From assembly GCF_949987535.1 (NCBI RefSeq), contig NW_026645841.1, positions 1 to 64,000 on the forward strand: a stretch of 64,000 nt of DNA. Reading direction: 5' to 3'. Position numbers and translations under genes: made by a program. Shown in pieces: positions 1 through 64,000 of the stretch. The notes beneath the pieces are model-generated. The model did no database searches and was not told the origin of the DNA. It saw only the letters and a program-made list of their open reading frames with translations. The stretch is from Balaenoptera acutorostrata (taxonomy: Eukaryota; Chordata; Mammalia; Artiodactyla; Balaenopteridae). Numbering within the stretch: position 1 is the first letter of the stretch; every line of letters starts with the position of its first letter.

Positions 1-3000
1 AACCTGTTCCTTAAAACACTAGTGCTTAGGAAATCTATTGGAGGCAGAAGCAGTCAAGGGTAGCTTAGGGTTAGGGTTAGGGTTAGGGTGAGGGTTAGGG
101 TACGGCTTAGGGTACGGGTTCGGGGAGGTGTTCGGGTAGGGCATAGGGTATGGGTTAGGGTTAGGGTTAGGGCTAGTGTTAGGTTTAGGGCACGGTTTAG
201 GGTACGGGTTAGGATTAGGGTACGCGTTAGGGTTAGGTTAGGGGGTTAGGGTTAGTGTACGCGTTAGGGTGAGGGTAGTTATTAAACCTATCCCACTCTC
301 TAGATACCCCTTAGCACGTAAAGGGATATTATTGGGGGTCCAGCCATGGAGAAGAGTTTAGACACGAGGAGAAGATAAGGAACACACCCATTATCAAGAA
401 ATCACATTAGGATTCTCTTTTTAACCTGTTCCTTAAAACACTAGTGCTTAGGAAATCTATTGGAGGCAGAAGCAGTAAAGGGTAGCTTAGGGTTAGGGTT
501 AGGGTTAGGGTGAGGGTTAGGGTACGGCTTAGGGTACGGGTTCGGGGACGGGTTCGGGTAGGGCGTAGGGTACGGGTTAGGGTTAGGGTTAGGGCTAGTG
601 TTAGGTTTACGGCACGGTTTAGGGTACGGGTTAGGATTAGGGTACGCGTTAGGGTTAGGGTAGGGGTTAGGGTTAGGGTACGCGTTAGGGTGGGGGTAGT
701 TATTAAACCTATCACACTCTCTAGATACCCCTTAGCACGTAAAGGAATATTATTTGGGGGTCCAGCCATGGAGAAGAGTTTAGACACTAGGAGAAGATAA
801 GGAACACACCCATTATCACGAAATCACATTAGGATTCTCTTTTTAACCTGTTCCTTAAAACACTAGTGCTTAGGAAATCTATTGGAGGCAGAAGCCGTCA
901 AGGGTAGCTTAGGGTTAGGGTTAGGGTTAGGGTGAGGGTTAGGGTACGGCTTAGGGTACGGGTTTGGGGAGGGGTTCGGGTAGGGCGTAGGGTATGGGTT
1001 AGGGTTAGGGTTAGGGCTAGTGTTAGGGTTAGGGCTCGGTTTAGGGTACGGGTTAGGATTAGGGTATGCGTTACGGTTAGGGTAGGGGTTAGGGTTAGGA
1101 TACGCGTTAGGGTGAGGGAAGTTATTAAACCTATCCCACTCTCTAGATACCCCTTAGCACGAAAAGGAATATTATTTGGGGGTCCAGCCATGGAGAAGAG
1201 TTTAGACACGAGAAGATAAGGAACACACCCATTATCAAGAAATCACATTAGGATTCTCTTTTTAACCTGTTCCTTAAATCACTAGTGCTTAGGAAATCTA
1301 TTGGAGGCAGAAGCCGTCAAGGGTAGCTTAGGGTTAGGGTTAGGGTTAGGGTGAGGGTTAAGGTACTTCTTAGGGTACGGGTTCGGGGAGGGGTTCTGGT
1401 AGGGCGTAGGGTATGGGTTAGGGTTAGGGTTAGGGCTAGTGTTAGGGTTAGGGCTCGGTTTAGGCTACAGGTTAGGATTAGGGTACGCGTTAGGGTCAGG
1501 GTAGGGGTTAGGGTTAGTGTACGCGTTAGGTTGAGGGTAGTTATTAAACCTATCCCACTCTCTAGATACCCCTTAGCACGTGCAGGAATATTATTGGGGG
1601 TCCAGCCATGAAGAAGAGTTTAGACACTAGGAGAAGATAAGGAACACACCCATTATCACGAAATCACATTAGGATTCTCTTTTTAACCTGTTCCTTAAAA
1701 CACTAGTGCTTAGGAAATCTATTGGAGGCAGAAGCAGTCAAGGGTAGCTTAGGGTTAGGGTTAGGGTTAGGTTGAGGGTTAGGTTATGGCTTAGGGTACG
1801 GGTTCGGGGAGGTGTTCGGGTAGGGCGTTGGGTATGGGTTAGGGTTAGGGTTAGGGTTAGTGTTAGGGTTAGGGCTCGGTTTAGGGTACGGGTTAGGATT
1901 AGGGTACGCGTTAGGGTTAGGGTAGGGGTTAGGGTTAGGGTACGCGTTAGGGTGGGGCTAGTTATTAAACCTATCACACTCTCTAGATACCCCTTAGCAC
2001 GTAAAGTAATATTATTTGGGGGTCCAGACATGGAGAAGAGTTTAGACACTAGGAGAAGATAAGGAACACACCCATTATCACGAAATCACATTAGGATTCT
2101 CTTTTTAACCTGTTCCTTAAAACACTAGTGCTTAGGAAATCTATTGGAGGCAGAAGCAGTCAAGGGTAGCTTAGGGTTAGGGTTAGGGTTAGGGTGCGGG
2201 TTAGGTACGGCTTAGGGTACGGGTTCGGGGAGGGGTTCGGGAAGGGCGTAGGGTATGGGTTAGGGTTAGGGTTAGGGCTAGTGTTAGGGTTAGGGCTCGG
2301 TTTAGGGTACGGGTTAGGATTAGGGTACGCGTTAGGGTTCGGGTAGGGGTTAGGGTTAGGGTACGCGTTAGTGTGAGGGTAGTTATTAAACCTATCCCAC
2401 TCTCTAGATACCCCTTAGCACGTAAAGGAATATTATTTGGGAGTCCAGCCATGGAGAAGAGTTTAGACACGAGGAGAAGATAAGGAACACACCCATTATC
2501 AAGAAATCACATTAGGATTCTCTTTTTAACCTGTTCCTTAAAACACTAGTGCTTAGGAAATCTATTGGAGGCAGAAGCAGTCAAGGGTAGCTTAGGGTTA
2601 GGGTTAGGGTTAGGGTGAGGGTTAGGGTACGGTTTAGGGTACGGGTTCAGGGAGGGGTTCGGGTAGGGCGTAGGGTATGGGTTAGGGTTAGGGTTAGAGT
2701 TAGTGTTAGGGTTAGGGCTCGGTTTAGGGTACGGGTTAGGATTAGGGTACGCGCTAGGGTTAGGGTAGGGGTTATGGTTAGGGTACGCGTTAGGTTGAGG
2801 GTAGTTATTAAACCTATCCCACTCTCTAGATACCCCTTAGCACGTGCAGGAATATTATTGGGTGTCCAGCCATGGAGAAGAGTTTAGACACTAGGAGAAG
2901 ATAAGGAACACACACATTATCACGAAATCACATTAGGATTCTCTTTTTAACCTATTCCTTAAAACACTAGTGCTTAGGAAATCTATTGGAGGCAGAAGCA

Positions 3001-3370
3001 GTCAAGGGTAGCTTAGGGTTAGGGTTAGGGTTAGGTTGAGGGTTAGGGTATGGCTTAGGGTACGGGTTCGGGGAGGGGTTCGGGTAGGGCGTTGGGTATG
3101 GGTTAGGGTTAGGGTTAGGGTTAGTGTTAGGGTTAGGGCTCGGTTTAGGGTACGGGTTAGGATTAGGGTACGCGTTAGGGTTAGGGTAGGGGTTAGGGTT
3201 AGGGTACGCGTTAGGGTGGGGGTAGTTATTAAACCTATCACACTCTCTAGATACCCCTTAGCACGTAAAGGAATATTATTTGGGGGTCCAGACATGGACA
3301 AGAGTTTAGACACTAGGAGAAGATAAGGAACACACCCATTATCACGAAATCACATTAGGATTCTCTTTTT

Positions 3371-3792
3371 AACCTGTTCCTTAAAACACTAGTGCTTAGG
3401 AAATCTATTGGAGGCAGAAGCAGTCAAGGGTAGCTTAGGGTTAGGGTTAGGGTTAGGGTGAGGGTTAGGGTACGGCTTAGGGTACGGGTTCGGGGAGGGG
3501 TTCGGGTAGGGCGTAGGGTATGGGTTAGGGTTAGGGTTAGGGCTAGTGTTAGGGTTAGGGCTCGGTTTAGGGTACGGGTTAGGATTAGGGTACGCGTTAG
3601 GGTTCGGGTAGGGGTTAGGGTTAGGGTACGCGTTAGTGTGAGGGTAGTTATTACACCTATCCCACTCTCTAGATACCCCTTAGCACGTAAAGGAATATTA
3701 TTTGGGAGTCCAGCCATGGAGAAGAGTTTAGACACGAGGAGAAGATAAGGAACACACCCATTATCAAGAAATCACATTAGGATTCTCTTTTT
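3371..3792 (+). repeat. Reference monomer (422 bp)
   Basis: This copy has the consensus length and serves as the coordinate reference. Positions 3371-3434 are the unique head, with the ACTAGT, TTAGGAAATC and GAGGCAGAAG landmarks. Positions 3435-3644 are the 35-hexamer block. Positions 3645-3792 are the unique tail, with TTATTAAACCT or a variant, TCTAGA, CCATGG and TCTCTTTTT. Nearly every copy keeps TCTAGA and CCATGG once, so cutting at either should reduce the array to a ladder based on 422 bp. Confidence 0.95.
3435..3644 (+). repeat. Telomere-like hexamer block of the reference monomer
   Basis: The 210 bp parse without a break into 35 hexamers. The block opens with four perfect TTAGGG, and the consensus block has about half its hexamers perfect. 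The rest differ by one to three bases and recur at fixed places in almost all monomers: TGAGGG at 5, TACGGC at 7, GAGGGG at 11, CTCGGT at 22, TACGCG at 27 and 33, TAGGGG at 30. They were therefore already degenerate before the array was amplified. The four opening TTAGGG and the GGGG-rich hexamers 10-13 contain four or more closely spaced G-runs, so G-quadruplex formation on the + strand is expected from sequence alone. TAGGGTTA cores of the kind bound by telomeric Myb-domain proteins occur several times per block. Binding in vivo is inference. Confidence 0.95.
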
Positions 3793-3856
3793 AACCTGTT
3801 CCTTAAAACACTAGTGCTTAGGAAATCTATTGGAGACAGAAGCCGTCAAGGGTAGC
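3645..3856 (+). repeat. Unique 212-bp block of the monomer (tail plus next head)
   Basis: This is the part of the repeat that is not telomere-like, running from TAGTTATT to the GGGTAGC before the next TTAGGG. It is AT-richer than the hexamer block and has no internal tandem structure. I see no polymerase III A/B boxes, tRNA-like fold, transposon terminus or coding potential. It holds the most useful diagnostic variants: CCCAC or CACAC after ACCTAT; CACGTAAAGG or CACGTACAGG; ATTATTTGGGGG or ATTATTGGGGG; CACGAGG, CACTAGG or CACGAGAAG; and TCAAGAAATC or TCACGAAATC. Its origin is unknown to me. Confidence 0.9.
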
Positions 3857-5878
3857 TTAGGGTTAGGGTTAGGGTTAGCGTGAGGGTTAGGGTACGGTTT
3901 AGGGTACGGGTTCAGGGAGGGGTTCGGGTAGGGCGTAGGGTATGGGTTAGGGTTAGGGTTAGAGTTAGTGTTAGGGTTAGGGCTCGGTTTAGGGTACGGG
4001 TTAGGATTAGGGTACGCGCTAGGGTTAGGGTAGGGGTTATGGTTAGGGTACGCGTTAGGGTGAGGGTAGTTATTAAACCTATCACACTCTCTAGATACCC
4101 CTTAGCACATAAAGGAATATTATTTGGGGGTCCAGCCATGGAGAAGAGTTTAGACACGAGGAGAAGACAAGGAACACACCCATTATCAAGAAATCATATT
4201 AGGATTCTCTTTTTAACATGTTCCTTAAAACACTAGTGCTTAGGAAATCTATTGGAGGCAGAAGCCGTCAAGGGTAGCTTAGGGTTAGGGTTAGGGTTAG
4301 GATGAGGGTTAGGGTACGGCTTAGGGTACGGGTTCGGGGAGGTGTTCGGGTAGGGCATAGGGTATGGGTTAGGGTTAGGGTTAGGGCTAGTGTTAGGTTT
4401 AGGGCTCGGTTTAGGGTACGGGTTAGGATTAGGGTACGCGTTAGGGTTAGGTTAGGGGTTAGGGTTAGTGTACGCGTTAGGGTGAGGGTAGTTATTAAAC
4501 CTATCCCACTCTCTAGATACCCCTTAGCACGTAAAGGAATATTATTGGGGGTCCAGCCATGGAGAAGAGTTTAGACACGAGGAGAAGATAAGGAACACAC
4601 CCATTATCAAGAAATCACATTAGGATTCTCTTTTTAACCTGTTCCTTAAATCACTAGTGCTTAGGAAATCTATTGGAGGCAGAAGCAGTAAAGGGTAGCT
4701 TAGGGTTAGGGTTAGGGTTAGGGTGAGGGTTAGGGTACGGCTTAGGGTACGGGTTCGGGGACGGGTTCGGGTAGGGCGTAGGGTACGGGTTAGGGTTAGG
4801 GTTAGGGCTAGTGTTAGGTTTACGGCACGGTTTAGGGTACGGGTTAGGATTAGGGTACGCGTTAGGGTTAGGGTAGGGGTTAGGGTTAGGGTACGCGTTA
4901 GGGTGGGGGTAGTTATTAAACCTATCACACTCTCTAGATACCCCTTAGCACGTAAAGGAATATTATTTGGGGGTCCAGCCATGGAGAAGAGTTTAGACAC
5001 TAGGAGAAGATAAGGAACACACCCATTATCACGAAATCACATTAGGATTCTCTTTTTAACCTGTTCCTTAAAACACTAGTGCTTAGGAAATCTATTGGAG
5101 GCAGAAGCCGTCAAGGGTAGCTTAGGGTTAGGGTTAGGGTTAGGGTGAGGGTTAGGGTACGGCTTAGGGTACGGGTTTGGGGAGGGGTTCGGGTAGGGCG
5201 TAGGGTATGGGTTAGGGTTAGGGTTAGGGTTAGTGTTAGGGTTAGGGCTCGGTTTAGGGTACGGGTTAGGATTAGGGTACGCGTTAGTGTTAGGGTAGGT
5301 GTTAGGGTTAGGGTACGCGATAGGGTGAGGTTAGTTATTAAACCTATCCCACTCTCTAGATACCCCTTAGTATGTAAAGGAATATTATTTGGGGGTCCAG
5401 CCATGGAGAAGAGTTTAGACACTAGGAGAAGATAAGGAACACACCCATTATCAAGAAATCACATTAGGATTCTCTTTTTAACCTGTTCCTTAAAACACTA
5501 GTGCTTAGGAAATCTATTGGAGGCAGAAGCCGTCAAGGGTAGCTTAGGGTTAGGGTTAGGGTTAGGGTGAGGGTTAGGGTATGGCTTAGGGTACGGGTTC
5601 GGGGAGGGGTTCCGGTAGGGCGTAGGGTATGGGTTAGGGTTAGGGTTAGGGTTAGTGTTAGGGTTAGGGCTCGGTTTAGGGTACGGGTTAGGATTAGGGT
5701 ACGCGTTAGGGTTAGGGTAGGGGTTAGGGTTAGGGTACGCGTTAGGGTGGGGGTAGTTATTAAACCTATCACACTCTCTAGATACCCCTTAGCCCGTAAA
5801 GGACTATTATTTGGGGGTCCAGCCATGGAGAAGAGTTTAGACACGAGGAGAAGATAAGGAACACACCCATTATCAAGA

Positions 5879-5893
5879 AATCACAATGTGATT
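5879..5893. repeat. Perfect 15-bp palindromic variant AATCACAATGTGATT
   Basis: A 7-bp inverted repeat with a one-base centre replaces the usual AATCACATTAGGATT. It is followed by TTTTTAAGCTG instead of TTTTTAACCTG. Confidence 0.9.
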
Positions 5894-7563
5894 CTCTTTT
5901 TAAGCTGTTCCTTAAAACACTAGTGCTTAGGAAATCTATTGGAGGCAGAAGCAGTAAAGGGTAGCTTAGGGTTAGGGTTAGGGTTAGGGTGAGGGTTAGG
6001 GTACGGCTTAGGGTACGGGTTCGGGGACGGGTTCGGGTAGGGCGTAGGGTACGGGTTAGGGTTAGGGTTAGGGCTAGTGTTAGGGTTAGGGCACGGTTTA
6101 GGGTACGGGTTAGGATTAGGGTACGCGTTAGGGTTAGGGTAGGGGTTAGGGTTAGGGTACGCGTTAGGGTGGGGGTAGTTATTAAACCTATCACATTCTC
6201 TAGATACCCCTTAGCACGTAAAGGAATATTATTTGGGGGTCCAGCCATGGAGAAGAGTTTAGACACTAGGAGAAGATAAGGAACACACCCATTATCACGA
6301 AATCACATTAGGATTCTCTTTTTAACCTGTTCCTTAAAACACTAGTGCTTAGGAAATCTATTGGAGGCAGAAGCCGTCAAGGGTAGCTTAGGGTTAGGGT
6401 TAGGGTTAGGGTGAGGGTTAGGGTACGGCTTAGGGTACGGGTTTGGGGAGGGGTTCGGGTAGGGCGTAGGGTATGGGTTAGGGTTAGGTTTAGGGTTAGT
6501 GTTAGGGTTAGGGCTCGGTTTAGGGTACGGGTTAGGATTAGGGTACGCGTTAGTGTTAGGGTAGGTGTTAGGGTTAGGGTACGCGATAGGGTGAGGTTAG
6601 TTATTAAACCTATCCCACTCTCTAGATACCCCTTAGTATGTAAAGGAATATTATTTGGGGGTCCAGCCATGGAGAAGAGTTTAGACACGAGAAGATAAGG
6701 AACACACCCATTATCACGAAATTACATTAGGATTCTCTTTTTAACATGTTCCGTAAAACACTAGTGCTTAGGAAATCTATTGGAGGCAGAAGCAGTCAAG
6801 GGTAGCTTAGGGTTAGGGTTAGGGTTAGGGTGAGGGTTAGGGTACGGCTTAGGGTACGGGTTCGGGGAGGGGTTCGGGTAGGGCGTAGGGTATGGTTTAG
6901 GGTTAGGGTTAGGGCTAGTGTTAGGGTTAGGGCTCGGTTTAGGGTACGGGTTAGGATTAGGGTACGCGTTAGGGTTCGGGTAGGGGTCAGGGTTAGGGTA
7001 CGCGTTAGTGTGAGGGTAGTTATTAAACCTATCCCACTCTCTAGATACCCCTTAGCACGTAAAGGAATATTATTTGGGAGTCCAGCCTTGGAGAAGAGTT
7101 TAGACACGAGGAGAAGATAAGGAACACACCCATTATCAAGAAATCACATTAGGATTCTCTTTTTAACCTGTTCCTTAAAACACTAGTGCTTAGGAAATCT
7201 ATTGGAGGCAGAAGCCGTCAAGGGTAGCTTAGGGTTAGGGTTAGGGTTAGGGTGAGGGTTAGGGTACGGTTTAGGGTACGGGTTCAGGGAGGGTTTCGTG
7301 TAGGGCGTAGGGTATGGGTTAGGGTTAGGGTTAGAATTAGTGTTAGGGTTAGGGCTGGGTTTAGGGTACGGGTTAGGATTAGGGTACGCGCTAGGGTTAG
7401 GGTAGGGGTTATGGTTAGGGTACGCGTTAGGGTGGGGGTAGTTATTAAACCTATCCCACTCTCTAGATAGCCCTTAGCACGTAAAGGACTATTATTTGGG
7501 GGTCCAGCCATGGAGAAGAGTTTAGACACGAGGAGAAGATAAGGAACACACCCGTTATCAAGA

Positions 7564-7578
7564 AATCACAATGTGATT
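7564..7578. repeat. Perfect 15-bp palindromic variant
   Basis: Same AATCACAATGTGATT with the linked TTTTTAAGCTG. The unit also has GACTATTATTT, shared with the other early palindrome units. Confidence 0.9.
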
Positions 7579-9696
7579 CTCTTTTTAAGCTGTTCCTTAA
7601 AACACTAGTGCTTAGGAAATCTATTGGAGGCAGAAGCAGTCAAGGGTAGCTTAGGGTTAGGGTTAGGGTTAGGGTGAGGGTTAGGGTACCGCTTAGGGTA
7701 CGGGTTCGGGGAGGGGTTCGGGTAGGGCCTAGGGTATGGGTTAGGGTTAGGGTTAGGGCTAGTGTTAGGTTTAGGGCTCGGTTTAGGGTACGGGTTAGGA
7801 TTAGGGTATGCGTTAGGGTTAGGGTAGGGGTTAGGGTTAGGATACGCGTTAGGGTGAGGGAAGTTATTAAACCTATCCCACTCTCTAGATACCCCTTAGC
7901 ACGAAAAGGAATATTATTTGGGGGTCCAGCCATGGAGAAGAGTTTAGACACTAGGAGAAGATAAGGAACACACCCATTATCACGAAATCACATTAGGATT
8001 CTCTTTTTCACCTGTTCCTTAAAACACTAGTGCTTAGGAAATCTATTGGAGGCAGAAGCAGTCAAGGGTAGCTTAGGGTTAGGGTTAGGGTTAGGGTGAG
8101 GGTTAGGGTACGGCTTAGGGTACGGGTTCGGGGAGGGGTTCGGGTAGGGCGTAGGGTATGGGTTAGGGTTAGGGTTAGGGCTAGTGTTAGGGTTAGGGCT
8201 CGGTTTAGGGTACGGGTTAGGATTAGGGTACGCGTTAGGGTTCGGGTAGGGGTTAGGGTTAGGGTACGCGTTAGTGTGAGGGTAGTTATTAAACCTATCC
8301 CACTCTCTAGATACCCCTTAGCACGTAAAGGAATATTATTTGGGAGTCCAGCCATGGAGAAGAGTTTAGACACGAGGAGAAGATAAGGAACACACCCATT
8401 ATCAAGAAATCACATTAGGATTCTCTTTTTAACCTGTTCCTTAAAACACTAGTGCTTAGGAAATCTATTGGAGGCAGAAGCCGTCAAGGGTAGCTTAGGG
8501 TTAGGGTTAGGGTTAGGGTGAGGGTTAGGGTACGGTTTAGGGTACGGGTTCAGGGAGGGGTTCGGGTAGGGCGTATGTTATGGGTTAGGGTTAGGGTTAG
8601 AGTTAGTGTTAGGGTTAGGGCTCGGTTTAGGGTACGGGTTAGGATTAGGGTACGCGTTAGTGTTAGGGTAGGGGTTAGGGTTAGGGTACGCTTTAGGGTG
8701 AGGGTAGTTATTAAACCCATCCCACTCTCTAGATTCCCCTTAGCACGTAAAGGAATATTATTTGGGGGTCCAGTCATGGAGAAGGGTTTAGACACTAGGA
8801 GAAGATAAGGAACACACCCATTATCAAGAAATCACATTAGGATTCTCTTTTTAACCTGTTCCTTAAAACACTAGTGCTTAGGAAATCTATTGGAGGCAGA
8901 AGCAGTCAAGGGTAGCTTAGGGTTAGGGTTAGGTTTAGGGTGAGGGTTAGGGTATGGCTTAGGGTACGGGTTCGGGGAGGGGTTCGGGTAGGGCGTAGGC
9001 TATGGGTTAGGGTTAGGGTTAGGGTTAATGTTAGGGTTAGGGCTCGGTTTAGGGTACGGGTTAGGATTAGTGTATGCGTTAGGGTTAGGGTAGGGGTTAG
9101 GGTTAGGGTACGCGTTAGGGTGAGGGTAGTTATTAAACCTATCCCACTCTCTAGATACCCCTTAGCACGTAAAGGAATATTATTTGGGGGTCCAGCCATG
9201 GAGAAGAGTTTAGACACAAGGAGAAGATAAGGAACACACCCATTATCAAGAAATCACATTAGGATTCTCTTTTTAACATGTTCCTTAAAACACTAGTGCT
9301 TAGGAAATCTATTGGAGGCAGAAGCCATCAAGGGTAGCTTAGGGTTAGGGTTAGGGTTAGGGTGACGGTTAGGGTACGGTTTAGGGTACGGGTTCGGGGA
9401 GGGGTTCGGGTAGGGCGTAGGGTATGGGTTAGGGTTAGGGTTAGGGTTAGTGTTAGGGTTAGGGCTCGGTTTAGGGTACGGGTTAGGATTAGGGTACGCG
9501 TTAGGGTTAGGGTAGGGGTTAGGGTTAGGGTACGCGTTAGGGTGGGGGTAGTTATTAAACCTATCACACTCTCTAGATACCCCTTAGCACGTAAAGGAAT
9601 ATTATTTGGGGGTCCAGACATGGAGAAGAGTTTAGACACTAGGAGAAGATAAGGAACACACCCATTATCACGAAATCACATTAGGATTCTCTTTTT

Positions 9697-10124
9697 AACC
9701 TGTTCCTTAAAACACTAGTGCTTAGGAAATCTATTGGAGGCAGAAGCAGTCAAGGGTAGCTTAGGGTTAGGGTTAGGGTTAGGGTTAGGGTGAGGGTTAG
9801 GGTACGTCTTAGGGTATGGGTTCGGGGAGGGGTTCGGGTAGGGCGTAGGGTACGGGTTAGGGTTAGGGTTAGGGCTAGTGTTAGGGTTAGGGCACGGTTT
9901 AGGGTACGGGTTAGGATTAGGGTACGCGTTAGGGTTAGGGTAGGGGTTAGGGTTAGGGTACGCGTTAGGGTGGGGGTAGTTATTAAACCTATCACACTCT
10001 CTAGATACCCCTTAGCACGTAAAGGAATATTATTTGGGGGTCCAGCCATGGAGAAGAGTTTAGACACTAGGAGAAGATAAGGAACACACCCATTATCACA
10101 AAATCACATTACGATTCTCTTTTT
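9697..10124 (+). repeat. 428-bp unit with one extra TTAGGG
   Basis: Five rather than four TTAGGG open the hexamer block. The same gain, with TACGTCTTAGGG and TATGGG, recurs in the unit at 12231, so the two share ancestry at offset 2534. Confidence 0.9.
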
Positions 10125-10945
10125 AACCTGTTCCTTAAAACACTAGTGCTTAGGAAATCTATTGGAGGCAGAAGCCGTCAAGGGTAGCTTAGGGTTAGGG
10201 TTAGGGTTAGGGTGAGGGTTAGGGTACGGCTTAGGGTATGGGTTTGGGGAGGGGTTCGGGTAGGGCGTAGGGTATGGGTTAGGGTTAGGGTTAGGGTTAG
10301 TGTTAGGGTTAGGGCTCGGTTTAGGGTACGGGTTAGGATTAGGGTACGCGTTAGTGTTAGGGTAGGTGTTAGGGTTAGGGTACGTGATAGGGTGAGGTTA
10401 GTTATTAAACCTAACCCACTCTCTAGATACACCTTAGTATGTAAATGAATATTATTTGGGGGTCCAGCCATGGAGAAGAGTTTAGACACTAGGAGAAGAT
10501 AAGGAACACACCCATTATCACAAAATCACATTACGATTCTCTTTTTAACCTGTTCCTTAAAACACTAGTGCTTAGGAAATCTATTGGAGGCAGAAGCCGT
10601 CAAGGGTAGCTTAGGGTTAGGGATAGGGTTAGGGTGAGGGTTAGGGTATGGCTTAGGGTACGGGTTCGGGGAGGGGTTCGGGTAGGGCGTAGGGTATGGG
10701 TTAGGGTTAGGGTTAGGGTTAGTGTTAGGGTTAGGGCTCGGTTTAGGGTACGGGTTAGGATTAGGGTACGCGTTAGGGTTAGGGTAGGGGTTAGGGTTAG
10801 GGTACGCGTTAGGGTGGGGGTAGTTATTAAACCTATCACACTCTCTAGATACCCCTTAGCACGTAAAGGACTATTATTTGGGGGTCCAGCCATGGAGAAG
10901 AGTTTAGACACGCGGAGAAGATAAGGAACACACCCATTATCAAGA

Positions 10946-10960
10946 AATCACAATGTGATT
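10946..10960. repeat. Perfect 15-bp palindromic variant
   Basis: Same palindrome and linked GACTATTATTT and TTTTTAAGCTG as the copies near 5.9 and 7.6 kb. Confidence 0.9.
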
Positions 10961-12230
10961 CTCTTTTTAAGCTGTTCCTTAAAACACTACTGCTTAGGAA
11001 ATCTATTGGAGGCAGAAGCAGTCAAGGGTAGCTTAGGGTTAGGGTTAGGGTTAGGGTGAGGGTTAGGGTACCGCTTAGGGTACGGGTTCGGGGAGGGGTT
11101 CGGGTAGGGCGTAGGGTATGGGTTAGGGTTAGGGTTAGGGCTAGTGTTAGGGTTAGGGCTCGGTTTAGGGTACGGGTTAGGATTAGGGTATGCGTTAGGG
11201 TTAGGGTAGGGGTTAGGGTTAGGGTACGCGTTAGGGTGGGGGTAGTTATTAAACCTATCCCACTCTCTAGATACCCCTTAGCACGAAAAGGAATATTATT
11301 TGGGGGTCCAGCCATGGAGAAGAGTTTAGACACGAGAAGATAAGGAACACACCCATTATCAAGAAATCACATTAGGATTCTCTTTTTAACCTGTTCCTTA
11401 AATCACTAGTGCTTAGGAAATCTATTGGAGGCAGAAGCCGTCAAGGGTAGCTTAGGGTTAGGGTTAGGGTTAGGGTGAGGGTTAGGGTACGGCTTAGGGT
11501 ACGGGTTCGGGGAGGGGTTCGGGTAGGGCGTAGGGTATGGGTTAGAGTTAGGGTTAGGGTTAGTGTTAGGGTTAGAGCTCGGTTTAGGGTACGGGTTAGG
11601 ATTAGGGTATGCGTTAGGGTTAGGGTAGGGGTTAGGGTTGGATACGCGTTAGGGTGGGGGTAGTTATTAAACCTATCCCACTCTCTAGATACCCCTTAGC
11701 ACGTAAAGGAATATTATTTGGGGGTCCAGCCATGGAGAAGAGTTTAGACACAAGGAGAAGATAAGGAACACACCCATTATCAAGAAATCACATTAGGATT
11801 CTCTTTTTAACATGTTCCTTAAAACACTAGTGCTTAGGAAATCTATTGGAGGCAGAAGCCATCAAGGGTAGCTTAGGGTTAGGGTTAGGGTTAGGGTGAG
11901 GGTTAGGGTACGGTTTAGGGTACGGGTTCGGGGAGGGGTTCGGGTAGGGCGTAGGGTATGGGTTAGGGTTAGGGTTAGGGTTAGTGTTAGGGTTAGGGCT
12001 CGGTTTAGGGTACGGGTTAGGATTAGGGTACGCGTTAGGGTTAGGGTAGGGGTTAGGGTTAGGGTACGCGTTAGGGTGGGGGTAGTTATTAAACCTATCA
12101 CACTCTCTAGATACCCCTTAGCACGTAAAGGAATATTATTTGGGGGTCCAGACATGGAGAAGAGTTTAGACACTAGGAGAAGATAAGGAACACACCCATT
12201 ATCACGAAATCACATTAGGATTCTCTTTTT

Positions 12231-12658: not shown

Positions 12659-12976
12659 AACCTGTTCCTTAAAACACTAGTGCTTAGGAAATCTATTGGA
12701 GGCAGAAGCCGTCAAGGGTAGCTTAGGGTTAGGGTTAGGGTTAGGGTGAGGGTTAGGGTACGGTTTAGGGTACGGGTTCGGGGAGGGGTTCGGGTAGGGC
12801 GTAGGGTATGGGTTAGGGTTAGGGTTAGGGCTAGTGTTAGGGTTAGGGCTCGGTTTAGGGTACGAGTTAGGATTAGGGTATGCGTTAGGGTTAGGGTAGG
12901 GGTTAGGGTTAGGGTACGCGTTAGGGTGGGGGTAGTTATTAAACCTATCCCACTCTCTAGATACCCCTTAGCACGA

Positions 12977-33289: not shown

Positions 33290-33392
33290 AACCTGTTCCT
33301 TAAAACACTAGTGCTTAGGAAATCTATTGGAGCCAGAAGCAGTCAAGGGTAGCTTAGGGTTAGGGTTAGGGTTAGGGTGAGGGCTAGGGTAT

Positions 33393-52639: not shown

Positions 52640-53092
52640 AACCTGTTCCTTAAATCACTAGTGCTTAGGAAATCTATTGGAGGCAGAAGCCGTCAAGGGT
52701 AGCTTAGGGTTAGGGTTAGGGTTAGGGTGAGGGTTAGGGTAAGGCTTAGGGTACGGGTTCGGGGAGGGGTTCGTGTAGGGCGTAGGGTATGGGTTAGAGT
52801 TAGGGTTAGGGTTAGTGTTAGGGTTAGGGCTTGGTTTAGGGTACGGGTTAGGATTAGGGTACGCGTTAGTGTTAGGGCAGGGGTTAGGGTTAGGGTACGC
52901 TTTAGGGTGAGGGTAGTTATTAAACCTATCCCACTCTCTAGATACCCCTTAGCACGTAAAGGAATATTATTTGGGCGTCCAGCCATGGAGAAGGGTTTAG
53001 ACACTAGGAGAAGATAAGGAAAACACCCATTATCAAGAAATCACAATATGATTCTCTTTTTAAACTGTTCCTTAAAACACTAGTGGTTAAGA

Positions 53093-55201
53093 AATCTATT
53101 GGAGGCAGAAGCAGTCAAGGGTAGCTTAGGGTTAGGGTTAGGGTTAGGGTGAGATTAGGGTACGGCTTAGGGTAAGGGTTCGGGGAGGGGTTCGGGGAGG
53201 GCGTAGGGTATGGGTTAGGGTTAGATTTAGGGTTAGTGTTAGGGTTAGGGCTCGGTTTAGGGTACGGGTTAGGATTAGGGTACTCGTTAGGTTTAGGGTA
53301 GCGGTTAGGGTTAGGGTACGCGTTAGGGTGAGGGTAGTTATTAAACCTATCACACTCTCTAGATACCCCTTAGCACGTAAAGGAATATTATTTGGGGGTC
53401 CAGCCATGGAGAAGAGTTTAGACACGAGGAGAAGATAAGGAACACACCCATTATCACGAAATCACATTAGGATTCTCTTTTTAACCTGTTCCTTAAAACA
53501 CTAGTGCTTAGGAAATCTATTGGAGGCAGAAGCAGTCAAGGGTAGCTTAGGGTTAGGGTTAGGGTTAGGGTGAGGGTTAGGGTACGGCTTAGGGTACGGG
53601 TTCGGGGAGGGGTTCGGGTAGGGCGTAGGGTATGGGTTAGTGTTAGGGTTAGGGCTAGTGTTAGGGTTAGGGCTCGGTTTAGGGTACGGGTTAGGATTAG
53701 GGTACGCGTTAGGGTTAGGGTAGGGGTTAGGGTTAGGGTACGTGTTAGGGTGAGGGTAGTTATTAAACCTATCCCACTCTCTAGATACCCCTTAGCACGT
53801 AAAGGAATATTATTTGGGGGTCCAGCCATGGAGAAGAGTTTAGACACGAGGAGAAGATAAGGAACACACCCATTATCACGAAATCACATTAGGATTCTCT
53901 TTTTAACCTGTTCCTTAAAACACTAGTGCTTAGGAAATCTATTGGAGGCAGAAGCCGTCAAGGGTAGCTTAGGGTTAGGGTTAGGGTTAGGGTGAGGGTT
54001 AGGGTACGGTTTAGGGTACGGGTTCAGGGAGGGGTTCGGGTAGGGCGTAGGGTATGGGTTAGGGTTAGGGTTAGAGTTAGTGTTAGGGTTAGGGCTCGGT
54101 TTAGGGTACGGGTTAGGATTAGGGTACGCGCTAGGGTTAGGGTAGCGGTTAGGGTTAGGGTACGCGTTAGGGTGAGGGTAGTTAATAAACCTATCCCACT
54201 CTCTAGATACCCCTTAGCACGTATAGGAATATTATTTGGGGGTCCAGCCATGGAGAAGAGTTTAGACACTAGGAGAAGATAAGGAACACACCCATTATCA
54301 CGGAATCACATTAGGATTCTCTTTTTACCCTGTTCCTTAAAACACTAGTGCTTAGGAAATCTATTGGAGGCAGAAGCAGTCAAGGGTAGCTTAGGGTTAG
54401 GGTTAGGGTTAGGGTGAGGGCTACGGTATGGCTTAGGGTACGGGTTCGGTGAGGGGTTCGGGTAGGGCGTAGGGTATGGGTTAGGGTTAGGGTTAGGGTT
54501 AGTGTTAGGGTTAGGGCTCGGTTTAGGGTACGGGTTAGGATTAGGGAACGCGTTAGGGTTAGGGTAGGGGTTAGGGTTAGGGTACGTGTTAGGGTGAGGG
54601 TAGTTATTAAACCTATCACACTCTCTAGATACCCCTTAGCACGTAAAGGAATATTATTTGGGGGTCCAGCCATGGAGAAGAGTTTAGACACGAGCAGAAG
54701 ATAAGGAACACACCCATTATCAAGAAATCACATTAGGATTCTCTTTTTAACCTGTTCCTTAAAACACTAGTGCTTAGGCAATCTATTGGAGGCAGAAGCA
54801 GTCAAGGGTAGCTTAGGGTTAGGGTTAGGGTTAGGGTGAGGGATAGGGTACGGCTTAGGGTACGGGTTCGGGGAGGAGTTCGGGTCGGGCGTAGGGTATG
54901 GGTTAGGGTTAGGGTTAGGGTTATTGTTAGGGTTAGGGCTCGGTTTAGGGTACGGGTTAGGATTAGGGTACGCGTTAGTGTTAGGGTAGGTGTTAGGGTT
55001 AGGGTACGCGATAGGGTGAGGTTAGTTATTAAACCTATCCCACTCTCTAGATACCCCTTAGCACGTAAAGGAATATTATTTGGGGGTCCAGCCATGGAGA
55101 AGAGTTTAGACACGAGGAGAAGATAAGGAACACACCCATTATCAAGAAATCACATTAGGATTCTCTTTTTAACCTGTTCCTTAAATCACTAGTGCATAGG
55201 A
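53093..55201 (+). repeat. Five-unit tandem duplication, copy 1 (2109 bp)
   Basis: This stretch is followed directly by a copy that appears identical in the variant positions compared, including the rare GAGCAGAAG, TTTTTACCCTG, CTTAGGCAATC and GTTATTGTT. That is a sign of very recent duplication. Confidence 0.87.
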
Positions 55202-57310
55202 AATCTATTGGAGGCAGAAGCAGTCAAGGGTAGCTTAGGGTTAGGGTTAGGGTTAGGGTGAGATTAGGGTACGGCTTAGGGTAAGGGTTCGGGGAGGGGT
55301 TCGGGGAGGGCGTAGGGTATGGGTTAGGGTTAGATTTAGGGTTAGTGTTAGGGTTAGGGCTCGGTTTAGGGTACGGGTTAGGATTAGGGTACTCGTTAGG
55401 TTTAGGGTAGCGGTTAGGGTTAGGGTACGCGTTAGGGTGAGGGTAGTTATTAAACCTATCACACTCTCTAGATACCCCTTAGCACGTAAAGGAATATTAT
55501 TTGGGGGTCCAGCCATGGAGAAGAGTTTAGACACGAGGAGAAGATAAGGAACACACCCATTATCACGAAATCACATTAGGATTCTCTTTTTAACCTGTTC
55601 CTTAAAACACTAGTGCTTAGGAAATCTATTGGAGGCAGAAGCAGTCAAGGGTAGCTTAGGGTTAGGGTTAGGGTTAGGGTGAGGGTTAGGGTACGGCTTA
55701 GGGTACGGGTTCGGGGAGGGGTTCGGGTAGGGCGTAGGGTATGGGTTAGTGTTAGGGTTAGGGCTAGTGTTAGGGTTAGGGCTCGGTTTAGGGTACGGGT
55801 TAGGATTAGGGTACGCGTTAGGGTTAGGGTAGGGGTTAGGGTTAGGGTACGTGTTAGGGTGAGGGTAGTTATTAAACCTATCCCACTCTCTAGATACCCC
55901 TTAGCACGTAAAGGAATATTATTTGGGGGTCCAGCCATGGAGAAGAGTTTAGACACGAGGAGAAGATAAGGAACACACCCATTATCACGAAATCACATTA
56001 GGATTCTCTTTTTAACCTGTTCCTTAAAACACTAGTGCTTAGGAAATCTATTGGAGGCAGAAGCCGTCAAGGGTAGCTTAGGGTTAGGGTTAGGGTTAGG
56101 GTGAGGGTTAGGGTACGGTTTAGGGTACGGGTTCAGGGAGGGGTTCGGGTAGGGCGTAGGGTATGGGTTAGGGTTAGGGTTAGAGTTAGTGTTAGGGTTA
56201 GGGCTCGGTTTAGGGTACGGGTTAGGATTAGGGTACGCGCTAGGGTTAGGGTAGCGGTTAGGGTTAGGGTACGCGTTAGGGTGAGGGTAGTTAATAAACC
56301 TATCCCACTCTCTAGATACCCCTTAGCACGTATAGGAATATTATTTGGGGGTCCAGCCATGGAGAAGAGTTTAGACACTAGGAGAAGATAAGGAACACAC
56401 CCATTATCACGGAATCACATTAGGATTCTCTTTTTACCCTGTTCCTTAAAACACTAGTGCTTAGGAAATCTATTGGAGGCAGAAGCAGTCAAGGGTAGCT
56501 TAGGGTTAGGGTTAGGGTTAGGGTGAGGGCTACGGTATGGCTTAGGGTACGGGTTCGGTGAGGGGTTCGGGTAGGGCGTAGGGTATGGGTTAGGGTTAGG
56601 GTTAGGGTTAGTGTTAGGGTTAGGGCTCGGTTTAGGGTACGGGTTAGGATTAGGGAACGCGTTAGGGTTAGGGTAGGGGTTAGGGTTAGGGTACGTGTTA
56701 GGGTGAGGGTAGTTATTAAACCTATCACACTCTCTAGATACCCCTTAGCACGTAAAGGAATATTATTTGGGGGTCCAGCCATGGAGAAGAGTTTAGACAC
56801 GAGCAGAAGATAAGGAACACACCCATTATCAAGAAATCACATTAGGATTCTCTTTTTAACCTGTTCCTTAAAACACTAGTGCTTAGGCAATCTATTGGAG
56901 GCAGAAGCAGTCAAGGGTAGCTTAGGGTTAGGGTTAGGGTTAGGGTGAGGGATAGGGTACGGCTTAGGGTACGGGTTCGGGGAGGAGTTCGGGTCGGGCG
57001 TAGGGTATGGGTTAGGGTTAGGGTTAGGGTTATTGTTAGGGTTAGGGCTCGGTTTAGGGTACGGGTTAGGATTAGGGTACGCGTTAGTGTTAGGGTAGGT
57101 GTTAGGGTTAGGGTACGCGATAGGGTGAGGTTAGTTATTAAACCTATCCCACTCTCTAGATACCCCTTAGCACGTAAAGGAATATTATTTGGGGGTCCAG
57201 CCATGGAGAAGAGTTTAGACACGAGGAGAAGATAAGGAACACACCCATTATCAAGAAATCACATTAGGATTCTCTTTTTAACCTGTTCCTTAAATCACTA
57301 GTGCATAGGA
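55202..57310 (+). repeat. Five-unit tandem duplication, copy 2 (2109 bp)
   Basis: Partner of 53093-55201. The junction falls in the unique head between GTGCATAGG and GAAGCAGTC (about 55200-55218), so this exchange used the unique block rather than the hexamer block. Confidence 0.87.
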
Positions 57311-58543
57311 AATCTATTGGAGGCAGAAGCCGTCAAGGGTAGCTTAGGGTTAGGGTTAAGGTTAGGGTGAGGGTTAGGGTACGGTTTAGGGTACGGGTTC
57401 AGGGAGGGGTTCGGGTAGGGCATAGGGTATGGGTTAGGGTTAGGGTTAGAGTTAGTGTTAGGGTTAGGGCTCGGTTTAGGGTATGGGTTAGGATTAGGGT
57501 ACGCGTTAGGGTTAGGGTAGGGGTTAGGGTTAGGGTACGCGTTTGGGTGAGGGTAGTTATTAAACCTATCCCAGTCTCTAGATACCCCTTAGCACGTAAA
57601 GGAATATTATTTGGGGATCCAGCCATGGAGAAGAGTTTAGACACTAGGAGAACATAAGGAACACACCCATTATCACGAAAACACATTAGGATTCTATTTT
57701 TAACCTGTTCCTTAAAACACTAGTGCTTAGGAAATTTATTGGAGGCAGAAGCAGTCAAGGGTAGCTTAGGGTTAGGGTTAGGGTTAGGGTGAGGGCTAGG
57801 GTATGGCTTAGGGTACGGGTTCGGGGAGGGGTTCGGGTAGGGCGTAGGGTATGGGTTAGGGTTAGGGTTAGGGTTAGTGTTATGGTTAGGGCTCGGTTTA
57901 GGGTACGGGTTAGGATTAGGGTACGCGTTAGTGTTAGGGTAGTGGTTAGGGTTAGGGTACGCTTTAGGGTGGGGGTAGTTATTAAACCTATCACACTCTC
58001 TAGATACCCCTTAGCACGTAAAGGAATATTATTTGGGGGTCCAGCCTTGGAGAAGAGTTTAGACACGAGGAGAATATAAGGAACACACCCATTATCAAGA
58101 AATCACATTAGGATTCTCTTTTTAACCTGTTCCTTAAAACACTAGTGCTTAGGAAATCTATTGGAGGCAGAAGCAGTCAAGGGTAGCTTAGGGTTAGGGT
58201 TAGGGTTAGGGTGAGGGTTAGGGTAAGGCTTAGGGTACGGGTTCAGGGAGGGGTTCGTGTAGGGCGTAGGGTATGGGTTAGAGTTAGGGTTAGGGTTAGT
58301 GTTAGGGTTAGGGCTCGGTTTAGGGTACGGGTTAGGATTAGGGTACGCGTTAGTGTTAGGGTAGGGGTTAGGGTTAGGGTACGCTTTAGGGTGAGGGTAG
58401 TTATTAAACCTATCCCACTCTCTAGATACCCCTTAGCACGTAAAGGAATATTATTTGGGCGTCCAGCCATGGAGAAGGGTTTAGACACTAGGAGAAGATA
58501 AGGAACACACCCATTATCAAGAAATCACAATATGATTCTCTTT
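57084..58543 (+). repeat. Three-unit segment repeated at offset 8013, copy 2
   Basis: Partner of 49071-50530. It sits immediately downstream of the five-unit tandem duplication, so the 2109-bp repeat was made inside an older copy of this arrangement. Confidence 0.8.
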
Positions 58544-59388
58544 TTAAACTGTTCCTTAAAACACTAGTGGTTAGGAAATCTATTGGAGGCAGAAGCAGTC
58601 AAGGGTAGCTTAGGGTTAGGGTTAGGGTTAGGGTGAGATTAGGGTACGGCTTAGGGTAAGGGTACGGGGAGGGGTTCGGGGAGGGCGTAGGGTATGGGTT
58701 AGGGTTAGATTTAGGGTTAGTGTTAGGGTTAGGGCTCGGTTTAGGGTACGGGTTAGGATTAGGGTACTCGTTAGGTTTAGGGTAGCGGTTAGGGTTAGGG
58801 TACGCGTTAGGGTGAGGGTAGTTATTAAACCTATCACACTCTCTAGATACCCCTTAGCACGTACAGGAATATTATTTGGGGGTCCAGCCATGGAGAAGAG
58901 TTTAGACACGAGGAGAAGATAAGGAACACACCCATTATCACGAAATCACATTAGGATTCTCTTTTTAACCTGTTCCTTAAAACACTAGTGCTTAGGAAAT
59001 CTATTGGAGGCAGAAGCAGTCAAGGGTAGCTTAGGGTTAGGGTTAGGGTTAGGGTGAGGGCTACGGTATGGCTTAGGGTACGGGTTCGGTGAGGGGTTCG
59101 GGTAGGGCGTAGGGTATGGGTTAGGGTTAGGGTTAGGGTTAGTGTTAGGGTTAGGGCTCGGTTTAGGGTACGGGTTAGGATTAGGGAACGCGTTAGGGTT
59201 AGGGTAGGGGTTAGGGTTAGGGTACGTGTTAGGGTGAGGGTAGTTATTAAACCTATCACACTCTCTAGATACCCCTTAGCACGTAAAGGAATATTATTTG
59301 GGGGTCCAGCCATGGAGAAGAGTTTAGACACGAGCAGAAGATAAGGAACACACCCATTATCAAGAAATCACATTAGGATTCTCTTTTT

Positions 59389-60582
59389 AACCTGTTCCTT
59401 AAAATACTAGTGCTTAGGAAATCTATTGGAGGCAGAAGCAGTCAAGGGTAGCTTAGGGTTAGGGTTAGGGTTAGGGTGAGGGATAGGGTACGGCTTAGGG
59501 TACGGGTTCGGGGAGGATTTCGGGTAGGGCGTAGGGTATGGGTTAGGGTTAGGGTTAGGGTTAGTGTTAGGGTTAGGGCTCGGTTTAGGGTACGGGTTAG
59601 GATTAGGGTACGCGTTAGTGTTAGGGTAGGTGTTAGGGTTAGGGTACGCGATAGGGTGAGGTTAGTTATTAAACCTATCCCACTCTCTAGATACCCCTTA
59701 GCACGTAAAGGAATATTATTTGGGGGTCCAGCCATGGAGAAGAGTTTAGACACTAGGAGAAGATAAGGAACACACCCATTATCAAGAAATCACATTAGGA
59801 TTCTCTTTTCAACCTGTTCCTTAAAACACTAGTGCTTAGGAAATCTATTGGAGGCAGAAGCAGTCAAGGGTAGCTTAGGGTTAGCGTTAGGGTTAGGGTG
59901 AGGGTTAGGGTACGGCTTACGATACGGGTTCGGGGAGGGGTTCGTGTAGGGCGTAGGGTATGGGTTAGGGTTAGGGTTAGGGCTAGTGTTAGGGTTAGGG
60001 CTCGGTTTAGGGTACGGGTTAGGATTAGGGTATGCGTTAGGGTTAGGGTAGGGGTTAGGGTTAGGGTACGCGTTAGGGTGAGGGTAGTTATTAAACCTAT
60101 CCCACTCTCTAGATAACCATTAGCACGTAAAGGAATATTATTTGGGGGTCCAGCCATGGAGAAGAGTTTAGACACGAGGAGAAGATAAGGAACACACCCA
60201 TTATCAAGAAATCACATTAGGATTCTCTTTTTAACCTGTTCCTTAAATCACTAGTGCTTAGGAAATCTATTGGACCAGAAGCCGTCAAGGGTAGCTTAGG
60301 GTTAGGGTTAAGGTTAGGGTGAGGGTTAGGGTACGGTTTAGGGTACGGGGTTCAGGGAGGGGTTCGGGTAGGGCGTAGGGTATGGGTTAGGGTTAGGGTT
60401 AGAGTTAGTGTTAGGGTTAGGGCTCGGTTTAGGGTATGGGTTAGGATTAGGGTACGCGTTAGGGTTAGGGTAGGGGTTAGGGTTAGGGTACGCGTTAGGG
60501 TGAGGGTAGTTATTAAACCTATCCCAGTCTCTAGATACCCCTTAGCACGTAAAGGAATATTATTTGGGGATCCAGCCATGGA
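59389..60582 (+). repeat. Segment repeated at offset 3418, copy 1
   Basis: Units 59389, 59811 and 60233 match 62807, 63229 and 63651, sharing TCTTTTCAACC, TTAGCGTTAGGG and CCCAGTCTC. The 3418-bp offset equals eight standard units plus the 42-bp expansion in unit 60655, so the flanking copies were set apart by a normal eight-unit spacing. Confidence 0.8.
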
Positions 60583-60654
60583 GAAGAGTTTAGACACTAG
60601 GAGAAGATAAGGAACACACCCATTATCACGAAAACACATTAGGATTCTCTTTTT

Positions 60655-61118
60655 AACCTGTTCCTTAAAACACTAGTGCTTAGGAAATCTATTGGAGGCA
60701 GAAGCAGTCAAGGGTAGCTTAAGGTTAGGGTTAGGGTTAGGGTGAGGGCTAGGGTTAGGGTTAGGGTTAGGGTTAGGGTTAGGGTTAGGGTTAGGGTACG
60801 GCTTAGGGTACGGGTTCGGGGAGGGGTTCGGGTAGGGCGTCGGGTATGGGTTAGGGTTAGGGTTAGGGTTAGTGTTAGGGTTAGGGCTCGGTTTAGGGTA
60901 CGGGTTAGGATTAGGGAACGCGTTAGGGTTAGGGTAGGGGTTAGGGTTAGGGTACGTGTTAGGGTGAGGGTAGTTATTAAACCTATCACACTCTCTAGAT
61001 ACCCCTTAGCACGTAAAGGAATATTATTTGGGCGTCCAGCCATGGAGAAGGGTTTAGACACTAGGAGAAGATAAGGAACACACCCATTATCAAGAAATCA
61101 CAATATGATTCTCTTTTT
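60655..61118 (+). repeat. 464-bp unit with a 42-bp pure TTAGGG gain
   Basis: This is the longest unit in the window. Its hexamer block holds seven extra hexamers between GAGGGCTAGGG and TACGGCTT. The rest is a mosaic of GGGAACGCG-type and GGGCGTCCAG-type sequence. Confidence 0.93.
60755..60796 (+). repeat. (TTAGGG)7, longest perfect telomeric run seen
   Basis: Seven consecutive perfect TTAGGG hexamers lie here. Other blocks contain at most four or five in a row. The run stays in the 6-nt phase of the surrounding degenerate block. Confidence 0.95.
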
Positions 61119-62116
61119 AAACTGTTCCTTAAAACACTAGTGGTTAGGAAATCTATTGGAGGCAGAAGCAGTCAAGGGTAGCTTAGGGTTAGGGTTAGGG
61201 TTAGGGTGAGGGTTAGGGTACGGCTTAGGGTACGGGTTCGGGGAGGGGTTCGGGTAGGGCGTAGGGTATGGGTTAGGGTTAGAGTTAGGGTTAGTGTTAG
61301 GGTTAGGGCTCGGTTTAGGGTACGGGTTAGGATTAGGTTACTAGTTAGGTTTAGGGTAGCGGTTAGGGTTAGGGTACGCGTTAGGGTGAGGGTAGTTATT
61401 AAACCTATCACACTCTCTAGATACCCCTTAGCACGTAAAGGAATATTATTTGGGGGTCCAGCCATGGAGAAGAGTTTAGACACTAGGAGAATATAAGGAA
61501 CACACCCATTATCACGAAATCACATTAGGATTCTCTTTTTAACCTGTTCCTTAAAACACTAGTGCTTAGGAAATCTATTGGAGGCAGAAGCAGTCAAGGG
61601 TAGCTTAGGGTTAGGGTGAGGGTTAGGGTGAGGGTTAGGGTACGGCTTAGGGTACGGGTTCGGGGAGGGGTTCGGGTAGGGCGTAGGGTATGGGTTAGGG
61701 TTAGGTTTAGGGCTAGTGTTAGGGTTAGGGCTCGGTTTAGGGTACGGGTTAGGATTAGGGTACGCTTTAGGGTTAGGGTAGGGGTTAGTGTTAGGGTACG
61801 CGTTAGGGTGAGGGTAGTTATTAAACCTATCCCACTCTCTAGATACCCCTTAGCACGTAAAGGAATATTATTTGGGGGTCCAGCCATGGAGAAGAGTTTA
61901 GACACGAGGAGAATATAAGGAACACACCCATTATCAAGAAATCACATTACGATTCTCTTTTTAACCTGTTCCTTAAAACACTAGTGCTTAGGAAATCTAT
62001 TGGAGGCAGAAGCAGTCAAGGGTAGCTTAGGGTTAGGGTTAGGGTTAGGGTGAGGGCTAGGGTATGGCTTAGGGTACGGGTTCGGGGAGGGGTTCGGGTA
62101 GGGCATAGGGTATGGG

Positions 62117-62152
<36 letters not shown>

Positions 62153-62806
62153 CTCGGTTTAGGGTACGGGTTAGGATTAGGGAACGCGTTAGGGTTAGGG
62201 TAGGCGTTAGGGTTAGGGTACGTGTTAGGGTGAGGGTAGTTATTAAACCTATCACACTCTCTAGATACCCCTTAGCACATAAAGGAATATTATTTGGGGG
62301 TCCAGCCATGGAGAAGAGTTTAGACACGAGGAGAAGATAAGCAACACACCCATTATCAAGAAATCACATTAGGAATCTCTTTTTAACATGTTCCTTAAAA
62401 CACTAGTGCTTAGAAAATCTATTGGAGGCAGAAGCCGTCAAGGGTAGGTTAGGTTTAGGGTTAGGGTTAGGGTGAGGGTTAGGGTACGGCTTAGGGTACG
62501 GGTTCGGGGAGGGGTTCGGGTAGGGCGTAGGGTATGGGTTAGGGTTAGGGTTAGGGTTAGTGTTAGGGTTAGGGCTCGGTTTAGGGTACAGGTTAGGATT
62601 AGGGTACGCGCTAGGGTTAGGGTAGGGGTTAGGGTTAGTGTACGCGTTACGGTGAGGGTAGTTATTAAACCTATCCCAGTCTCTAGATACCCCTTAGCAC
62701 GTAAAGGAATATTATTTGGGGATCTAGCCATGGAGAAGAGTTTAGACACTAGGAGAAGATAAGGAACACACCCATTATCACGAAAACACATTAGGATTCT
62801 CTTTTT

Positions 62807-64000
62807 AACCTGTTCCTTAAAACACTAGTGCTTAGGAAATCTATTGGAGGCAGAAGCAGTCAAGGGTAGCTTAGGGTTAGGGTTAGGGTTAGGGTGAGGG
62901 ATAGGGTACGGCTTAGGGTACGGGTTCGGGGAGGAGTTCGGGTAGGGCGTAGGGTATGGGTTAGGGTTAGGGTTAGGGTTAGTGTTAGGGTTAGGGCTCG
63001 GTTTAGGGTACGGGTTAGGATTAGGGTACGCGTTAGTGTTAGGGTAGGTGTTAGGGTTAGGGTACGTGATAGGGTGAGGTTAGTTATTAAACCTATCCCA
63101 CTCTCTAGATACCCCTTAGCACGTAAAGGAATATTATTTGGGGGTCCAGCCATGGAGAAGAGTTTAGACACTAGGAGAAGATAAGGAACACACCCATTAT
63201 CAAGAAATCACATTAGGATTCTCTTTTCAACCTGTTCCTTAAAACACTAGTGCTTAGGAAATCTATTGGAGGCAGAAGCAGTCAAGGGTAGCTTAGGGTT
63301 AGCGTTAGGGTTAGGGTGAGGGTTAGGGTACGGCTTACGATACGGGTTCGGGGAGGGGTTCGTGTAGGGCGTAGGGTATGGGTTAGGGTTAGGGTTAGGG
63401 CTAGTGTTAGGGTTAGGGCTCGGTTTAGGGTACGGGTTAGGATTAGGGTATGCGTTAGGGTTAGGGTAGGGGTTAGGGTTAGGGTACGCGTTAGGGTGAG
63501 GGTAGTTATTAAACCTATCCCACTCTCTAGATAACCCTTAGCACGTAAAGGAATATTATTTGGGGGTCCAGCCATGGAGAAGAGTTTAGACACGAGGAGA
63601 AGATAAGGAACACACCCATTATCAAGAAATCACATTAGGATTCTCTTTTTAACCTGTTCCTTAAATCACTAGTGCTTAGGAAATCTATTGGAGGCAGAAG
63701 CCGTCAAGGGTAGCTTAGGGTTAGGGTTAAGGTTAGGGTGAGGGTTAGGGTACGGTTTAGGGTACGGGTTCAGGGAGGGGTTCGGGTAGGGCGTAGGGTA
63801 TGTGTTAGGGTTAGGGTTAGAGTTAGTGTTAGGGTTAGGGCTCGGTTTAGGGTATGGGTTAGGATTAGGGTACGCGTTAGGGTTAGGGTAGGGGTTAGGG
63901 TTAGGGTACGCGTTAGGGTGAGGGTAGTTATTAAACCTATCCCAGTCTCTAGATACCCCTTAGCACGTAAAGTAATATTACTTGGGGATCCAGCCATGGA
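62807..64000 (+). repeat. Segment repeated at offset 3418, copy 2
   Basis: Partner of 59389-60582, cut by the window end. The unit at 63651 lacks the TTGGACCAG change and the extra G in GTACGGGGTTCAG of its partner at 60233. Confidence 0.8.

Follow-up and report, generated by a model that had tools for sequence, protein, structure and literature searches.

What is the source of the altered hexamers in a satellite that is half telomere-like? The question is raised by the stretch of DNA analysed here (the window, 64,000 nucleotides), which is the first 64 kb of C375, an 804,584-bp contig in a genome of 2.77 Gb and 1,374 contigs. The window is filled by a tandem satellite whose 422-bp unit joins a block of hexamers derived from TTAGGG to a block of non-telomeric DNA. 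On sequence comparison, the divergence of these hexamers appears to come from variant tracts of whale telomeres in which TACGGG is common, and not from decay, an origin that is possibly new.

The repeat unit and its variant hexamers

Tandem Repeats Finder described the window as a single tandem array with a period of 422, 151.8 copies and 94% matches. We cut 151 full units from it and aligned them. Unit length is exactly 422 bp in 102 of the 151, pairwise identity between units averages 94.9%, and the mean agreement within alignment columns is 97.3%. The hexamer part consists of 35 hexamers followed by TA and measures 212 bp in 125 units; the remaining part, of 210 bp in most units, is without telomeric character. 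The initial annotation had correctly joined 35 hexamers to other DNA in a 422-bp unit but had split the unit as 210 + 212 bp, whereas a boundary shift of 2 bp makes it 212 + 210. Among the consensus hexamers, 18 are TTAGGG, 7 carry one change, 4 carry two and 6 carry three, so that 17 of the 35 differ from the telomeric sequence, in agreement with the earlier statement that about half had diverged; five of the 35 begin with TACG. The G-rich strand is the plus strand throughout the window (2412 TTAGGG, 0 CCCTAA).

A hexamer phase unbroken over 64 kb had also been proposed, and this does not hold: the register is kept inside units only. The block start (its first 24 bases) and a stretch near the block end share a register in 140 of the 151 units, with 10 units shifted by one base in one direction and 1 in the other. 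Between units, by contrast, all six registers are present and about equally used (20 to 30 units each), 422 not being a multiple of 6. The 26 blocks that depart from 212 bp fall into 15 that differ by multiples of six (six by -18, four by +18, two by +6, two by -12 and one by +42) and 11 that differ by one base; the former fit exchange in hexamer register.

The variants are a fixed property of the unit. At the 17 variant positions, which comprise 2567 hexamers across the array, TTAGGG itself is found in 1 and the consensus variant in 2067. The claim that the same diverged hexamers sit in nearly all units is accurate for their being diverged and less so for their being identical, as the share of units with the consensus variant ranges from 52% to 97% by position. 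Because they are fixed across units, the variants predate the amplification. The proposed order of events, in which the block decayed first and was amplified afterwards, is upheld in that respect, while decay as the source of the variants is weakened by the substitution contrast described below.

Comparison of the units along the array gave no sign of higher-order repeats, as no lag stands out among lags 1–40 (mean identity 0.947–0.954). Adjacent units are slightly less alike than average (0.9467 vs 0.9495). Multi-unit duplications occur: 12 runs of at least two units are repeated at 99% identity or more, the longest comprising 7, 7 and 6 units.

Location at contig ends and telomere variant tracts

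In a genome search with bases 3645–3856 of the window, the best 40 of 664 candidates scored are on 17 contigs, none of them among the large contigs sampled below. With contig ends as stand-ins for chromosome ends, we sampled 42 ends, 400 to 1,200 bp each, from 22 contigs that are at least 39.9 Mb long; the genome may have further contigs of this size. The satellite was present at 11 of the 42 ends (Table 1), and at all 11 its G-rich strand faces outward, as in a telomere (two-sided binomial p = 0.001). On C1, C3, C18, C26 and C28 it was found in samples 20 and 100 kb inward and was absent from those at 300 kb and 1 Mb (ten negative samples); on C18 it was still present 260 kb inward. The precedent named in the initial annotation, "heterochromatic interstitial" telomeric satellites, is a doubtful fit: on large contigs the satellite was seen only at ends, with interiors sampled at few places and the window contig itself unplaced. 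Besides the ends occupied by another satellite, of 1,759 bp, or by telomere-type tracts (Table 1), the left end of C21 reads N, and the other 21 ends have neither the satellites nor a telomere-type tract filling the end. These 21 include the right end of C7, with a short degenerate telomere-like tract, and the left end of C23, with a variant tract from about 2.9 kb in.

Telomere-type tracts show what such hexamers look like elsewhere in the same genome. At the right end of C3, samples over the last 10.7 kb are almost pure TTAGGG (198 copies in 1,200 bp; 116, 116 and 106 in 700 bp each). The right end of C18 is pure TTAGGG over its terminal 600 bp (99 copies). The satellite unit is unlike the C3 telomere in this respect, about half of it being non-telomeric. 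On the inner side of the C3 tract, however, inside about 11 kb of nearly pure TTAGGG, TTAGGG is mixed with TACGGG, and this mixture recurs on C18 (5 to 6 kb from the end), on C23 (a few kb in from the left end) and at the ends of C13, C20 and C265. TACGGG, the commonest variant of these telomere tracts, is shared between them and the satellite. Seven telomere-type tracts (L055, L070, L077, L129, L130, L132 and L134) are rich in TACGGG, which in places makes up every third hexamer.

A 48-base TTAGGG/TACGGG pattern matched exactly at 214 places in the genome, as compared with 0 for a reversed control, and was absent from the 64-kb window. Among the 100 places listed, 87 are in telomere orientation and no more than about 12 kb from an end of C3, C13, C18, C20 or C23. 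Further inward on C20, two samples, taken at 3 and 6 kb, read N. The remainder are 11 places in the last 3 kb of C265 and 2 on C25, 98 kb in. Over 3.9 kb that cover subtelomere and inner telomere, the right ends of C3 (L130) and C18 (L131) share 97.4% identity, which indicates that chromosome ends exchange DNA.

Decay, transfer or inheritance of the variants

The alternative that fares best supposes that an interstitial block of pure TTAGGG decayed by ordinary mutation and that block and flank were then amplified into a heterochromatic satellite. Two points count for it: the variants are fixed across units and predate the amplification, and the window contig and the other 16 contigs of the genome search are not placed on chromosomes. 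The spectrum of changes speaks against it. The consensus changes from TTAGGG fall 26 times in the TTA half and 7 times in the GGG half, whereas rare changes among units, seen in 1–3 units at canonical hexamers, number 16 and 36 in the respective halves (Fisher p = 1.9e-5, for a split into halves that was chosen after the data had been seen). The contrast persists when the later changes are limited to singletons (12 and 20, p = 0.001) or extended to all variants (23 and 58, p = 9.7e-7), and also when each variant type in the consensus is counted once (20 and 6, p = 2.2e-4). The fixed variants, then, seem to be the work of a process other than the one now changing the array. The changes T2A and A3C occur together in 5 of the 35 hexamers, which is modestly beyond chance (p = 0.015).

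Decay in place also sits poorly with the finding that TACGGG and some variants with multiple changes recur in telomere-like tracts. CTCGGT occurs twice in the tract on C25 and TACGGC twice on C265, and a 120-bp tract about 10 kb from the right end of C18 has CACGGT, TTAGGA, TGAGGG and TTCGGG in common with the satellite. Together with the location of the satellite at the ends of large contigs in telomere polarity, these observations make decay of an interstitial block unlikely.

The sharing of TACGGG and rarer variants could also have arisen in the reverse direction, the TACGGG tracts of telomeres having been seeded from an older satellite by recombination, and the exchange of DNA between chromosome ends offers a route. 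Yet the telomere tracts that we examined are without the 210-bp part, and the C3 tract has its variants on the inner side of an otherwise nearly pure telomere, as human telomeres do. We regard this direction of transfer as slightly less likely still than decay. That the array is a collapsed or wrongly extended repeat made in assembly is highly improbable: the window contig does start inside the array at base 1, but the units differ from each other, the satellite is on 17 contigs in one search and at 11 large-contig ends, and the array abuts another satellite directly.

We consider it probable, instead, that this is a terminal satellite of baleen whales, founded from an inner variant telomere piece with about 210 bp of other DNA and spread among ends by exchange. 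In such a course of events, a short piece of the inner telomere variant zone, containing TTAGGG, TACGGG and rarer hexamers, would have been duplicated in tandem with about 210 bp of adjoining DNA; recombination between ends would have carried it to further chromosome ends, and unequal exchange would keep the units about 95% alike.

Several observations weigh against this account. No founder copy was found, in that the 210-bp part is absent beside the telomere tracts examined on C3, C13, C18, C23, C25 and C265. At none of the 11 satellite ends was a passage from satellite to true telomere seen, the contigs starting or stopping inside the array. On C375 the 1,759-bp satellite lies on the side to which the G strand points, whereas a single sample from C3 shows it on the opposite side, and hence the order of the two satellites is not fixed. 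The telomere tracts compared are not all independent, as C3 and C18 share a subtelomere and C23 and C265 are alike by eye, and 114 of the 214 places of the 48-base pattern lie outside the listed set. Shared hexamers with a single change mean little when 62 different hexamers occur in at least three satellite cells (single hexamers of the aligned units), and the variant hexamers of the block may be non-independent if pieces of the block were duplicated. Finally, C25 carries an internal telomere variant tract, about 1.1 kb long and 98 kb in (C25:96001–100000, L133). The left end of this contig is the 1,759-bp satellite in both orientations, and the internal tract is possibly what is left of a former chromosome end, or else a sign that ends have exchanged DNA.

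With these points weighed, we lean slightly towards viewing the satellite as a fossil of the inner variant zone of a telomere, a piece of 35 hexamers that was captured with neighbouring DNA, multiplied, and spread over chromosome ends in telomere polarity. If this is true, an ancestral order of whale telomere variants survives in at least many hundreds of copies, as a readable record of how telomeres evolved.

Known satellites, host lineage and neighbouring DNA

The lineage of the host can be read from a nuclear copy of mitochondrial cytochrome b on C1, near 85.47 Mb (L029), which is fully open under the vertebrate mitochondrial code and is, for that reason, probably a recent insertion. It is 99% identical to the sequence of Balaenoptera bonaerensis, 98% to that of B. 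acutorostrata and 97% to that of the blue whale, and the first 56 of 120 search rows listed are baleen whales. As the nuclear copy may be older than the species, we read the lineage as a minke-like rorqual only.

A mysticete "heavy satellite", the whalebone-whale satellite published in 1993, reportedly has a 422-bp unit in rorquals, half of it unique and half TTAGGG subrepeats, and is said to be GC-rich in density gradients. The G+C content of our array is 47.2–48.0% per 4 kb. The title of Adegoke, Arnason and Widegren (1993, Chromosoma 102:382-388) describes a whalebone-whale satellite "with terminal chromosome localization". Papers that cite this work refer to it as a case of telomeric repeats within satellite or repetitive DNA, and in PMC5088352 it is the reference for satellite DNA that has short telomeric sequences among its components. 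A baleen-whale host, a terminal location and telomeric repeats as a component are thus common to both, and the repeat of the window is very probably this known satellite, a match made by host, end location and TTAGGG content. The initial suggestion that the chimeric repeat may be undescribed is accordingly very probably wrong. Within the titles and abstract openings that our literature comparison covered, subscription papers being largely outside its scope, neither a sequence of the satellite nor an origin from TACGGG tracts was found. The contribution of the assembly is a base-level view of position and polarity: the satellite lies at many large-contig ends, its G strand outward, and the telomere tracts of the genome bear TACGGG variants of their own. 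A comparison of telomere variants with satellites in different whales could thereby test how a telomere-derived satellite arose.

Two other systems invite comparison. Heterochromatic interstitial telomeric repeats (het-ITS) are described as large telomere-like arrays in repetitive DNA, and related titles concern internal telomeric sequences of the Chinese hamster, a satellite with telomeric sequences in Sparidae, and telomere-similar arrays of potato. The whale satellite is likewise a large telomere-like array in repetitive DNA; it differs in having been seen at large-contig ends, in its telomere polarity and in the fixed non-telomeric half of each unit. Human telomeres mix canonical and variant hexamers (PMC3919612). 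The whale telomeres differ in their variant, TACGGG, and the satellite differs in repeating a fixed 35-hexamer piece together with other DNA. For reference, variant repeats of human telomeres sit at the inner end of the telomere.

Table 1 Satellite and telomere-type features in the window and at sampled contig ends
Feature	Location	Strand	Basis
422-bp satellite array	window, 1..64000	+ (G-rich strand)	Tandem Repeats Finder and 151 aligned full units; array continues beyond window
Hexamer block of one example unit, 35 TTAGGG-derived hexamers + TA, 212 bp	window, 3435..3646	+	Tandem Repeats Finder hexamer tracts 3435-3645 and 3435-3646
Non-telomeric part of the same unit, 210 bp	window, 3647..3856	+	210 bp in 120/151 units
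422-bp satellite	left ends of C3, C6, C18, C19, C26, C28	-	end samples
422-bp satellite	right ends of C1, C17, C23, C26, C27	+	end samples
1,759-bp satellite	left ends of C5, C16, C25; right ends of C15, C25 (five ends)		end samples
Telomere-type tracts	right ends of C3, C18; left ends of C13, C20 (four ends)		end samples

The satellite is most likely terminal heterochromatin, or tolerated as such. The window holds 227 runs of at least three intact TTAGGG and 1149 matches to a telomere-protein-like site; going by sequence, the intact runs could possibly bind telomere proteins along the array. The core of the CENP-B box, TTCGNNNNANNCGGG, had 0 exact matches in the window, and no RNA family was found in bases 1–10000. 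The single open reading frame of at least 150 amino acids (162 amino acids) has coordinates that span both halves of the repeat and was not taken as a gene. An 18-bp periodicity reported by Tandem Repeats Finder within the hexamer block was not significant after the order of the hexamers had been shuffled (a fraction of 0.090 of 2000 shuffles equalled or passed the real order at lag 18, and 0.0915 at lag 12).

Beyond the window, C375 was followed by samples at 20 places and six more, and at the edge of the array. The 422-bp satellite was present in every sample up to 235.6 kb, and the array breaks off within a hexamer block at about 239.5 kb, where the 1,759-bp satellite follows directly. Identity to the consensus is 92–94% in the last three full hexamer blocks of the array, compared with 96–99.5% in the six that precede them; such a drop is usual at an array edge. 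The 1,759-bp satellite, with a unit of 1,758–1,759 bp, occupies all 15 samples from 260 kb onwards. Between 245 and 256 kb, three samples of 600 bp (L040–L042) match neither satellite and form an island between stretches of the 1,759-bp satellite; one of them may be part of a LINE-1 element. Matches between the 210-bp part and the 1,759-bp satellite are of 9 to 20 bases only and reveal no relation.

The length of 1,759 bp is that of the common cetacean satellite in baleen whales, which the neighbour on C375 resembles in size; this is a different repeat from the 422-bp unit. Titles in this field name the common cetacean satellite (Arnason et al. 1992) and a 1,579-bp component in the killer whale (Widegren et al. 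1985). Among the C375 samples of the 1,759-bp satellite (L014–L028 and L137), one unit, in L020, has a perfect palindrome of at least 60 bases at 598–657.

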